Assembly: GCA_024958655.1 (NCBI GenBank)
Contig: JANWUR010000008.1
Span: 62,001-126,000, forward strand
Direction: 5' to 3'
Source of the DNA: Cyanobium sp. FGCU6
Lineage (GTDB): Bacteria > Cyanobacteriota > Cyanobacteriia > PCC-6307 > Cyanobiaceae
DNA: 64,000 nucleotides
Under the pieces are notes generated by a model that had not been told where the DNA came from, searched no databases, and saw only the letters and a list, made by a program, of their open reading frames with translations. Below, piece after piece: positions 11,973-15,927 of this stretch. Each line of letters starts with the position of its first letter. Positions within the stretch are counted from its first letter, which is position 1. Position numbers and translations under genes: made by a program.

Positions 11973-12245
11973 TCAGCCCAGGGGGGCGCGCGGATAGCCC
12001 CGCAGCAGACCGCTTTCGATCATCAGACCAACGCCGGCCGTGATCAGGATCAGGCCCAGGGTTCCGTACCAGAACCAGGGGCCGGCCTGGGGCAGCACGA
12101 CCCCGGAATCACTGGCCGCGAGCAGGCTCGCCCAGGTGCCGATTCCCTTGCGGATCACCGCTTCGCCGAACAGGCAGAGCCCTGCCGGCAGCAGGAGAAC
12201 GCCGAGCTGGGCTTTCACGTACCAGCGGATCTTGTGAGCGGCCAT
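11973..12245 (-). CDS. Small membrane protein, two predicted TM helices (90 aa)
   Basis: MAAHKIRWYVKAQLGVLLLPAGLCLFGEAVIRKGIGTWASLLAASDSGVVLPQAGPWFWYGTLGLILITAGVGLMIESGLLRG. Confidence 0.65.
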   Translation of the reverse strand: MAAHKIRWYVKAQLGVLLLPAGLCLFGEAVIRKGIGTWASLLAASDSGVVLPQAGPWFWYGTLGLILITAGVGLMIESGLLRGYPRAPLG

Positions 12246-12284: not shown

Positions 12285-13790
12285 TCAGGACGGCGCGCCG
12301 GCGCAGATCCAGCGCACCAGGGTGCGCACGCCGAAGCCGGTGGCTCCGGCGGGATCGCTGCCACGCCCCTTGTCGCTCCAGACGGTGCCGGCGATGTCGA
12401 GGTGGGCCCAGGCCACATCCCTGGCCACGAAATCCTGCAGGAAGAGAGCCGCGGTGATCGAGCCGCCGGGGCGCGGGCCGGTGTTCTTCATGTCGGCGAC
12501 ATGGCTCTTGAGGCCCTCGCGGTAGGACGAGCGCAGCGGCATGCGCCACAGGGATTCGCCGGCACTGTTGGCGGCGCTCACCAGCGCCTCGGCGAGCCGG
12601 TCCTCGGGGGTCCAGAGGCCGGCGATCTCCTCGCCGAGGGCAATCACGCAGGCCCCGGTGAGGGTGGCCAGATCCACCACCACGTCGGGCTCGAGCCGGC
12701 AGGCATACACGAGGGCATCCGCCAGGGTGAGTCTGCCCTCGGCATCGGTGTTGTTGACCTCGATCGTCTTGCCGTTCGATGCGGTGAGCACGTCACCGGG
12801 ATGGATGGCGCCGCCACTGATCATGTTTTCGCAGGCGGCCACGATCACGTGCACCTCCACCCCCTCGGGGCGCCTCTGCCCGAGCGCCCGGGCCGCCCCC
12901 AGCACCGCGGCGCTGCCCCCCATGTCGTACTTCATCATCTCGATCTGGGAGCCGGCCGTCTTGAGGTTGTAGCCGCCGGAATCGAAGGTGAGCCCCTTGC
13001 CCACCAGAGCGACCCGGCGGTGCACCGGGCCGGCCGGGCGATAGATGAGATGGATGAACTTCGGCGGCAGCGAGGATCCCTGGGCCACTCCCAGGTAGGC
13101 CCCCATCCCCAGGGCTTCGCATTCCTCCATGTCCAGCAGCCGCAGCTCGAGGTCGAACTCGCGGGCGATTGACTCCGCCGTTTCGGCCAGATGCAGGGGG
13201 GTGGCCACGTTCGGTGGTGAGGCCACAAGCCCGCGGGCCAGCTCCACCCCGGCGCAGTCAGCCTCCAGTCCCGCCAGACCGGCGGCGGCACCGGCCGGCA
13301 GGCCCAGCAGACTCACCTGAGCGAGTTCATTGCGGGGCTCGGGATCGCTGCGGAACCGCTGATCCACGTAGAGCGCCAGGCGCACCGCCTCGGCCATGGC
13401 GGCAACACTGCTCTGCGGTTCGAGGCCCTCCACCGGCAGCTCCAGGCCCAGATGGCCTGCGCCGGCAGCGACGGCGGCCTTCGCGGCGGCGGCGGCGGCA
13501 TTGCGCAGGGCGGCGACGTCGAAGCCGGCCGGTTCACCCAGGCCCACCACAATCAAGGTGGAGGGCAGGATGCCCAGCCTGTCGATGCTCAGGCACTGGC
13601 CTGGCTTTGCCTGGAAGCGACGCTGTTCCAGCAGGGCGCCGAGATCGGCCCCGAAGCGCTCCACCAGCGCGGCCCGGCCCGGATGATCGTCGCCGGCGAA
13701 CACGCCCAGCGCCAGGGCATCGCCCTCCCAGCCCCCGGGAGCCCCGGCGGCGGCGGCGACACCGGTGGTCTCAAGGCAGCGGATGTCCAT
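12285..13790 (-). CDS. pepA: Leucyl aminopeptidase (M17)
   Basis: VALVGKGLTFDSGGYNLKTAGSQIEMMKYDMGGSAAVLGAARAL...NTDAEGRLTLADALVYA...ATLTGACVIALGEEIAGLW. Confidence 0.96.
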   Translation of the reverse strand: MDIRCLETTGVAAAAGAPGGWEGDALALGVFAGDDHPGRAALVERFGADLGALLEQRRFQAKPGQCLSIDRLGILPSTLIVVGLGEPAGFDVAALRNAAAAAAKAAVAAGAGHLGLELPVEGLEPQSSVAAMAEAVRLALYVDQRFRSDPEPRNELAQVSLLGLPAGAAAGLAGLEADCAGVELARGLVASPPNVATPLHLAETAESIAREFDLELRLLDMEECEALGMGAYLGVAQGSSLPPKFIHLIYRPAGPVHRRVALVGKGLTFDSGGYNLKTAGSQIEMMKYDMGGSAAVLGAARALGQRRPEGVEVHVIVAACENMISGGAIHPGDVLTASNGKTIEVNNTDAEGRLTLADALVYACRLEPDVVVDLATLTGACVIALGEEIAGLWTPEDRLAEALVSAANSAGESLWRMPLRSSYREGLKSHVADMKNTGPRPGGSITAALFLQDFVARDVAWAHLDIAGTVWSDKGRGSDPAGATGFGVRTLVRWICAGAPS

Positions 13791-13855: not shown

Positions 13856-14476
13856 TCAGCCTTGATCGGCGGTGAAGGGGGTGGACCAGCGGCCGGCGGT
13901 CTCCTTGTTGAAGGGGGGCAGCCAGCGGCGGATCAGCGCCTGCTCCAGCGCCCGGCGGGCCTTCACCGCCTCCGGCACGTCGCACCAGAAGCGGATGCTG
14001 GGCCGCGCGTCGAGATCGGCGCGGCGCAGGGCTTCGCCATAGGCCGCCAGGTAGGCCTTGCAGTCGTGATCGCCCTTCCAGCGCCGGTCCGCCCGGCCGG
14101 TCTCGCCCACGTAGAGCAGCAGGGGCAGCGGCAGGTGGGGGGGGCGGTCGAGCACCAGGTAGATGGCGGCGCCGCGTTGGGGGGCCGACGGCCAGCGCCA
14201 GAAGGAGAGGCTCTGGGGCTGCAGGCCGAGGGGATCCAGGGCGCGGGCGCGAGCGATGGGATCAAGGTTCTTGTCTCCCAGGAGGGCGGGATTGATCTCC
14301 GGCAGCAGCTGGCCCTGCTCCGCGGCGGGCGCGGATGGCCCGGCGGTGAACAGAGGCCCCTGATGGGCGGCCAGCCGCTCCTGCCACGCCAGCAGCTGGT
14401 GGCGTTCGAGGGGCAGTGCCGGCGGCGGCGAGCCGGCGGCGGCGGCCCCGGGCGCGAACAGATCTCCCTGGCGCAT
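13856..14476 (-). CDS. GIY-YIG nuclease-family protein
   Basis: Start at MRQGDLFAPG (14476). GIY-YIG-like AIYLVLDRPPHLPLPLLLYVGETGRADRRWKGDHDCKAYLAAYGEAL...ARRALEQALIRRWLPPFNKE. Confidence 0.75.
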   Translation of the reverse strand: MRQGDLFAPGAAAAGSPPPALPLERHQLLAWQERLAAHQGPLFTAGPSAPAAEQGQLLPEINPALLGDKNLDPIARARALDPLGLQPQSLSFWRWPSAPQRGAAIYLVLDRPPHLPLPLLLYVGETGRADRRWKGDHDCKAYLAAYGEALRRADLDARPSIRFWCDVPEAVKARRALEQALIRRWLPPFNKETAGRWSTPFTADQG

Positions 14477-14486
14477 GGCCGTCGCC

Positions 14487-15185
14487 TCAGCGGCGGGGCC
14501 GCTGCACGGCCGGGGGCAGCACGGGGCCTGCGGCCGGCGGCAGGAACGACACCCGGCCGATCCAGCGCTCCACCACCTCGGGTGGAAGCTGGAGCCGCTC
14601 CTGCAGATCGGCCAGATCGCGGAACGGGCCGCGGGCCCGCTCCTGCAGCAGCCGTCCGCAACGGGTGGAATCCATGGCGGGCAAGGCCGCCAGCGCCTTG
14701 GCATCGGCCCGGTTGACGGCCACGGCCGGGCCAGGGGAGGGGCGCGGAGCCGGGCTGCCGTACCAGCGGAACTCGAGCAGCGGCTGCCATAGCCGCAGCT
14801 GATCAGCGTCGAGCTGCAGCACCTCCAGGAGATCCTCCGGGCCGCTGAGCTGCACGCCGGAGGACTGCAGCCGCAGCAGCAGATCCACCTGGTCGCTGCG
14901 GCAGCCCGGCAGCCGCAGCCAGTCGGCCGCGGTGGCCCGGTTCACGTCCAGGCGCCAGCCGAGGGCAGCGGCATGGCGCACCTCCTCGGCGTTGCGCAGG
15001 CGCAGGGCAGGGTCCTGACGCAGTTTCAACTCCAGCAGCTCGCGCTCCACCACGTCGTCGGCCCGCTCGCTGGGGGCGCTGGGGGCGCCGGAGCCACCTC
15101 GAACGGGGCGTTGCGAGGGAGGGAGTTGGCCGCTGGCGATCAGCAGCCTCCGGGCCAGGGGATCCAGCCAGTGCCGCTTGGCCAT
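14487..15185 (-). CDS. Helix-hairpin-helix (ComEA-like) domain protein
   Basis: Start at MAKRHWLDPLARRL (15185). Two HhH-like repeats: LDVNRATAADWLRLPGCRSDQVDLLLRLQ and VAVNRADAKALAALPAMDSTRCGRLLQERARGPFRDLADLQERL. Confidence 0.75.
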   Translation of the reverse strand: MAKRHWLDPLARRLLIASGQLPPSQRPVRGGSGAPSAPSERADDVVERELLELKLRQDPALRLRNAEEVRHAAALGWRLDVNRATAADWLRLPGCRSDQVDLLLRLQSSGVQLSGPEDLLEVLQLDADQLRLWQPLLEFRWYGSPAPRPSPGPAVAVNRADAKALAALPAMDSTRCGRLLQERARGPFRDLADLQERLQLPPEVVERWIGRVSFLPPAAGPVLPPAVQRPRR

Positions 15186-15219
15186 GGCGGCCTGAGGGGG
15201 CTGCAGGATGTTGCGCACC

Positions 15220-15927
15220 TTACTGATGCCATCCCCCTGAGGGCGAGAAATCCACCAGCCCGCGGTGCACGGCGATGGCCACCGCATGGGCGCGGTCCCG
15301 GGCCTCCAGCTTGCGCAACACGTTGGCCATGTGGGTCTTGATTGTCTGGCGGCTCACGAACAGGCGGCGGGCGATCTCCTCGTTGGTCTCCCCCTGCATC
15401 ACGCCGCCCAGCACTTCCAGCTCGCGCGGACTCAACCCCGCACGTGAAGGCGCCGCCGACCCGGCCGCGCTGCGCAGGCGCGCGTCGAGATAGCTGCCGC
15501 CGCCGCAGAGGGTGCGCAGAGCGTCGAGCCCCGCGCCCTGGCCCAGCCGCGCTTCGGCCAGCACCGCCTCGCAGCCCGCCTCGATCGCCGCCCGCAGTCG
15601 TGCCCGGCGCGACTCCTGAGAGACCAGAAGCAGGGTGCGTACGGAGGGATGGCGTCGTTTCACCTCCACCACCAGGGCACTGCCGCACCCCTGCTCAAGC
15701 TGGTCGCTGGCCACCAGCAGGCAGGGTCGGGTTTCGGCCACCAGCCGAAGGCCTTCGGCCTCGGTGGTGGCGGCGCCCACCACCCGCAGACCCTCAGGGG
15801 CACCGGTACAGAGGGCCAGCAGCAGGCCGCGATGGCCAAGGCAGAAAACCAGACTGCAGTCGGCCAGGAGTTGGCCGGCCAGCGCGTGCTGCTCGCGCCA
15901 GTGGGCCAGGAACGGGGTGAAGTCCAT
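15220..15927 (-). CDS. LuxR-family response regulator with atypical receiver domain
   Basis: C-terminal LSPRELEVLGGVMQGETNEEIARRLFVSRQTIKTHMANVLRKLEARDRAHAVAIAVHRGLVD; N-terminal receiver-like fold. Confidence 0.85.
   Translation of the reverse strand: MDFTPFLAHWREQHALAGQLLADCSLVFCLGHRGLLLALCTGAPEGLRVVGAATTEAEGLRLVAETRPCLLVASDQLEQGCGSALVVEVKRRHPSVRTLLLVSQESRRARLRAAIEAGCEAVLAEARLGQGAGLDALRTLCGGGSYLDARLRSAAGSAAPSRAGLSPRELEVLGGVMQGETNEEIARRLFVSRQTIKTHMANVLRKLEARDRAHAVAIAVHRGLVDFSPSGGWHQ

Follow-up and report, generated by a model that had tools for sequence, protein, structure and literature searches.

A probably clamp-tethered GIY-YIG protein family of cyanobacteria, a candidate for mismatch repair incision without MutL in picocyanobacteria

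Our analysis of a 64,000-nucleotide stretch of the Cyanobium sp. FGCU6 genome (the window) indicated that a small GIY-YIG protein (GIY) encoded there belongs to a putative family of DNA-cutting enzymes that is widespread in cyanobacteria and unstudied. Judged from the tandem QxxLF peptides in its flexible N-terminal tail, we consider it likely that GIY is an endonuclease tethered to the sliding clamp DnaN, and such tethering would place its cuts at or behind the replication fork. GIY is thereby well suited as a candidate for the cutting enzyme that is missing from mismatch repair in ocean picocyanobacteria. That the Cyanobiaceae protein is indeed the incision nuclease of a mismatch repair pathway working without MutL or MutH is conceivable, though we rate it below an even chance. 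The explanation as a whole, in which a clamp-tethered GIY nuclease would carry out MutL-free incision with an optional helix-hairpin-helix (HhH) protein and a local LuxR regulator, is offered tentatively, as one that falls somewhat short of an even call. The new elements are a conserved, probably clamp-tethered GIY family and a testable link between this family and the MutL-free picocyanobacteria.

Locus organization

The preliminary description of this DNA had singled out the locus as the spot of interest in the window, an assessment we share, and had placed three minus-strand genes there with gaps of 34 bp (luxR-hhH) and 10 bp (hhH-giy), both of which were confirmed by the coordinates (Table 1). 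The dN/dS ratios of 0.27 for GIY, 0.35 for HhH, and 0.25 for LuxR, obtained against a relative whose GIY protein is 88% identical, indicated that all three are real genes under selection. The same-strand run, however, does not end with the three-gene cluster originally proposed but extends past giy into pepA, located 65 bp downstream, and then into a 90-aa gene. pepA is the more strongly kept neighbor of giy. The 90-aa gene was kept in most Synechococcus/Cyanobium loci and was not found at Prochlorococcus-type loci.

The earlier assignments of the two upstream genes were also supported. The regulator carries a LuxR-type HTH (GerE; E = 5e-20 in Pfam) and probably acts locally. In P0002, read before as a DNA-binding-type HhH protein with two repeats, one HHH_3 module was called by Pfam (E = 1e-7), and the sequence shows a further HHH_3-like unit.

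Table 1. Coordinates of genes and protein features at the giy locus, numbered from the first nucleotide of the window.
Feature	Position	Strand	Remark
90-aa gene	11973..12245	(-)	directly 3' of pepA; without Pfam match
pepA, leucyl aminopeptidase	12285..13790	(-)	adjoins giy at every Cyanobiaceae locus examined, those of Prochlorococcus included
giy, GIY-YIG endonuclease-like protein P0001, 206 aa	13856..14476	(-)	cyanobacterial family of ~185-235 aa
GIY-YIG catalytic core	13886..14173	(-)	invariant Y106, Y122, G124, R132, H137, E178, N190
QGQLL, residues 54-58	14303..14317	(-)	family-wide second motif; QGSLF/QTSLF in relatives
QGPLF, residues 39-43	14348..14362	(-)	middle motif, specific to Cyanobiaceae, where the predicted helix ends
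QGDLF, residues 3-7	14456..14470	(-)	best-conserved part of the disordered tail; Q and L do not vary in alignment A1
hhH, HhH protein P0002, 232 aa	14487..15185	(-)	ATG at 15185; tandem ComEA-like HhH units; optional partner
luxR, LuxR/NarL-type regulator P0003, 235 aa	15220..15927	(-)	degenerate receiver-like N-terminus

Predicted nuclease identity of the GIY protein

By motif, Pfam, and profile evidence, GIY is a member of the GIY-YIG superfamily. The residues that had suggested this assignment (Y of AIY, YVG, R of RRW, E of LEQ, and N of PPFN) proved invariant, as did the catalytic residues in general, in alignments of 22 (A1) and 41 (A2) family members. P0001 alone matched no Pfam model; the GIY-YIG model PF01541 was matched by 18 of 22 relatives, with a best E-value of 5.8e-6. 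Profile alignment of the family with the GIY domains of cyanobacterial UvrC proteins in hhalign (P = 92%, E = 5.5e-7) brought the catalytic Y, YxG, R, E, and N into register. The AlphaFold2 model consisted of a confident core (pLDDT >90) with the beta-beta-alpha-beta-alpha order fitting GIY-YIG and a disordered N-terminal tail, with a helix predicted at residues 25-44. Foldseek comparison of this model with the PDB returned no solved structure at E<=1e-3, and sequence and fold searches of the PDB with GIY gave no useful match.

Clamp-type motifs in the N-terminal tail

QxxLF is the classical sliding-clamp-binding pentapeptide, and the disordered N-terminus of GIY contains two or three such peptides (QGDLF, QLSLF, QGSLF), a feature missed in the preliminary description, whose reading of the small protein as GIY-YIG-like was sound. 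All aligned members carry Q..L(F/L) within their first residues, with Q and L invariant and the rest of the tail variable. In the second motif, Q54 and L57 are invariant and F58 is conserved in at least 90% of the 41 members of A2; a third motif, HQxPLF, was added at the helix end in Cyanobiaceae. Strict QxxLF occurred in the N-terminal region of 131 of 156 homologues, and two or more copies in 90, against expectations from shuffled sequences of 5.6 (maximum, 13) and 0.1 (maximum, 2), respectively, all counts being uncorrected for relatedness. The 25 homologues without a strict match mostly carry near-variants such as QPSLL. GIY thus has the sequence feature expected of sliding-clamp-binding proteins, a conserved QxxL[FL] pentapeptide in an exposed or disordered segment.

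Peptides of the same form are present in presumed partners at the clamp. In DnaE of the source genome, GQGNLFD lies 252 residues before the C-terminus, which matches the position of the known clamp site of DnaE. MutS1 of Cyanobiaceae carries QGSLFG, QGNLFG, QGDLFG, or QLSL-type peptides in an N-terminal extension; in most other cyanobacteria tested, the MutS1 peptide is QLSLI, QLGLF, or QLNMF and lies near the C-terminus. The C-terminal clamp motif is gone from the Cyanobiaceae MutS1 proteins (L224-L230, L241-L252), one being found instead in the long N-terminal extension. Taken together, the tail motifs of GIY, the QGNLFD of DnaE, and the QGSLFG of MutS1 suggest that GIY is very probably a sliding-clamp-tethered nuclease. 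QxxLF-type pentapeptides have been described in the clamp-binding repair proteins MutS, MutL, DnaE, and RecBCD (PMC13254535, PMC9690074). GIY shares this type with them, in the QGxLF form of the source DnaE, and differs in that a single small putative nuclease holds two or three of the motifs; our literature search found no description of a GIY-YIG enzyme with clamp motifs.

Short linear motifs are promiscuous, and the QxxLF evidence is motif evidence, so the peptides might instead bind another partner, GIY being a nuclease with some other chromosomal role. We regard this reading as improbable in view of the number of the peptides, their position in a disordered tail, their invariance, and their identity with the DnaE and MutS1 forms.

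Distribution, synteny, and the HhH protein

Of 242 cyanobacterial genomes, 175 contained GIY relatives, almost always as a single copy; 46 genomes sampled from the sister classes contained none. The family is present in all 35 sampled Cyanobiaceae and missing from approximately one-third of the other cyanobacterial genomes. HhH relatives occurred in 170 of the 242 genomes, and the two presences were uncorrelated (both, 119; GIY only, 56; HhH only, 51; neither, 16; Fisher p = 0.27). The gene order luxR-hhH-giy-pepA is conserved in Cyanobiaceae; tyrS and a DUF1825 gene lie upstream in divergent orientation. This synteny holds across Synechococcus/Cyanobium and does not extend in full to Prochlorococcus-type genomes, which keep giy-pepA and have lost luxR and hhH; two genomes (G101/G252) retain LuxR and GIY in the absence of HhH. 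Beyond these close relatives, the proposed neighborhood survives only as the proximity of giy and hhH in S. elongatus-type genomes (560-760 bp apart); elsewhere outside Cyanobiaceae the two genes are unlinked, and the commonest recurrent neighbor of giy was found at 17 of 91 loci. The independent distribution and patchy linkage point to luxR-hhH-giy-pepA as a likely operon of picocyanobacteria rather than an obligate two-protein machine, with hhH probably co-transcribed with its neighbors in Synechococcus/Cyanobium and its product most plausibly an optional helper that binds DNA.

These distributions bear directly on the earlier proposal that GIY and HhH form a split UvrC-like nuclease/DNA-binding complex under a dedicated LuxR regulator. 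The tight adjacency in Synechococcus/Cyanobium and the proximity in S. elongatus-type genomes fit such a complex, yet GIY and HhH were gained and lost independently over the 242 genomes, without the co-occurrence and co-loss expected of a module, all Prochlorococcus-type genomes have GIY without HhH, and a UvrC of its own scored over the cut-off in every genome checked. We therefore abandoned the split module as quite unlikely.

The suggestion of a role in DNA uptake, with HhH as a ComEA-like uptake factor and GIY trimming incoming or foreign DNA, fared no better and is the least probable of the readings considered. ComEA is needed for transformation of S. elongatus (PMC7125226), no HHH_3 protein other than the P0002-type one was found in the source and S. 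elongatus-type genomes, and HhH and ComEC were both lost in Prochlorococcus. However, P0002 does not score as ComEA: it was not among the matches to the ComEA model TIGR00426 at E<=1, and no genome had a ComEA-family match over the cut-off. Inspection revealed no hydrophobic N-terminal segment in P0002 and no obvious membrane or signal segment in P0002 or the other HhH proteins inspected. ComEC was present in 20 of 26 HhH-minus genomes tested, including G101/G252, and absent from one HhH-plus genome (G273), and this led us to reject the competence link. Uptake is also unlikely because giy occurs in all sampled Prochlorococcus-type genomes, those tested lacking ComEC, and because P0002 shows no membrane or signal segment by inspection.

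Possible mismatch repair in genomes without MutL

MutL was absent or at noise level in all 35 Cyanobiaceae, including the source genome, and exceeded the cut-off in 203 of 207 other genomes. The loss thus covers the whole sampled family, beyond Prochlorococcus. MutS1 was full length in all 18 Cyanobiaceae tested, each with the mismatch-reading motif GDFFE. GIY was present in 37 of 38 MutL-less genomes compared with 138 of 204 others (Fisher p = 4e-5), an association that reflects few independent events (Cyanobiaceae once, G056, and G075); a contrary genome (G165) has MutS1 and lacks both MutL and GIY. Prochlorococcus MED4 has mutS and neither mutL nor mutH, and its repair pathway has been left open (PMC2921402); mutH is reported absent from all cyanobacteria (PMC5101192). 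The single-copy giy gene next to pepA, which can be deleted, provides a concrete candidate for the MED4 question.

In the proposed mechanism, the N-terminal peptides would anchor GIY in one DnaN pocket, or in both, behind the fork, where MutS1, bound to the clamp by the same kind of peptide, would find and signal the mismatch. The clamp would provide strand and location information, GIY would nick the daughter strand instead of MutL or MutH, and excision and resynthesis would follow. Picocyanobacteria would then possess a third kind of mismatch repair, in which MutS1 acts with a clamp-tethered GIY nicking the new strand, a step further that we consider rather unlikely as things stand.

Data from S. 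elongatus, which has a GIY orthologue, fit a MutS route independent of MutL. Among eight fidelity genes knocked out, including mutS and mutL, deletion of mutS raised the mutation rate approximately 10-fold (PMC9985602). The mutL deletion was not among the strains with a raised rate, as read from its omission and with polyploidy as a possible mask (PMC9985602).

Most cyanobacteria hold GIY alongside MutL, and the MutL motifs EQH[IV]AHE, ACR, and CPHGRP were found in GIY-plus and GIY-minus genomes alike. The idea that GIY-plus genomes have a MutL without an endonuclease motif was accordingly rejected, both groups sharing the EQHIAHE variant, and this likeness suggests that GIY is not simply a MutL substitute where both occur. 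The cyanobacterial MutL proteins (L258-L277) retain ACR and CPHGRP, and their endonuclease motif reads EQH[IV]AHE where DQHAxHE is usual.

The coexistence of GIY and MutL favors an alternative, unconnected with MutS1, in which clamp-tethered GIY would process branched or stalled intermediates of replication, by acting in fork restart or by cleaving flaps or junctions. The same motif and nuclease evidence applies, and the GIY-YIG domain of plant MSH1 offers an analogy, being reported to bind branched DNA (Fukui et al. 2018, cited in PMC12292046). Such a MutS-independent role is nearly as likely as the one in mismatch repair, each being possible rather than probable, although it leaves unexplained why only the MutL-less lineage never loses GIY, a pattern that ancestry could also explain.

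Comparison with known systems

The N-terminal GIY-YIG domain of UvrC (and Cho) has the same catalytic residues as GIY and the order of secondary structure predicted for it. In contrast to UvrC, the GIY chain has no UvrBC, RNase H-like, or HhH domains, carries N-terminal clamp-type motifs, and has its own gene in genomes that contain uvrC as well. EndoMS/NucS of Archaea and Actinobacteria is an endonuclease that acts on mismatches and is stimulated by the clamp (PMC8228993, PMC5290159). As a working idea, GIY would resemble it as a clamp-coupled nuclease in place of MutL-type mismatch repair. The nuclease fold of EndoMS/NucS differs from GIY-YIG, and NucS reads mismatches itself and replaces MutS too, whereas Cyanobiaceae with GIY keep MutS1. 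Plant-type MSH1 is a MutS fused to GIY-YIG (PMC12292046) and likewise joins mismatch recognition with a GIY-YIG nuclease, but in one polypeptide; the separate cyanobacterial MutS1 and GIY could meet on the clamp. If the mismatch repair role is true, MutS1 and GIY would correspond to a plant MSH1 split into two proteins, and to a NucS that depends on MutS. GIY would represent a family of GIY-YIG nucleases equipped with their own tandem tags for the sliding clamp and kept in ~70% of sampled cyanobacterial genomes.

Remnants and plasmid copies

A profile search confirmed that most absences among the 242 genomes are real, several genomes having truncated copies or remnants. Those of GIY (G119:C11:38389-38554, L183, L184) suggest loss in progress in MutL-plus lineages. 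GIY copies were also found on 31 plasmid records, a point against the proposed explanation, all listed genera being cyanobacterial; a mobile or phage origin was considered and set aside, with no phage match and no other genera listed for the plasmid copies. Two plasmid copies contain QLNLF. On plasmid pNLP3 (L257:2986-3480), the annotated GIY start omits an in-frame upstream stretch with NQLNLF, suggesting that starts in this family are likely mis-annotated in places.
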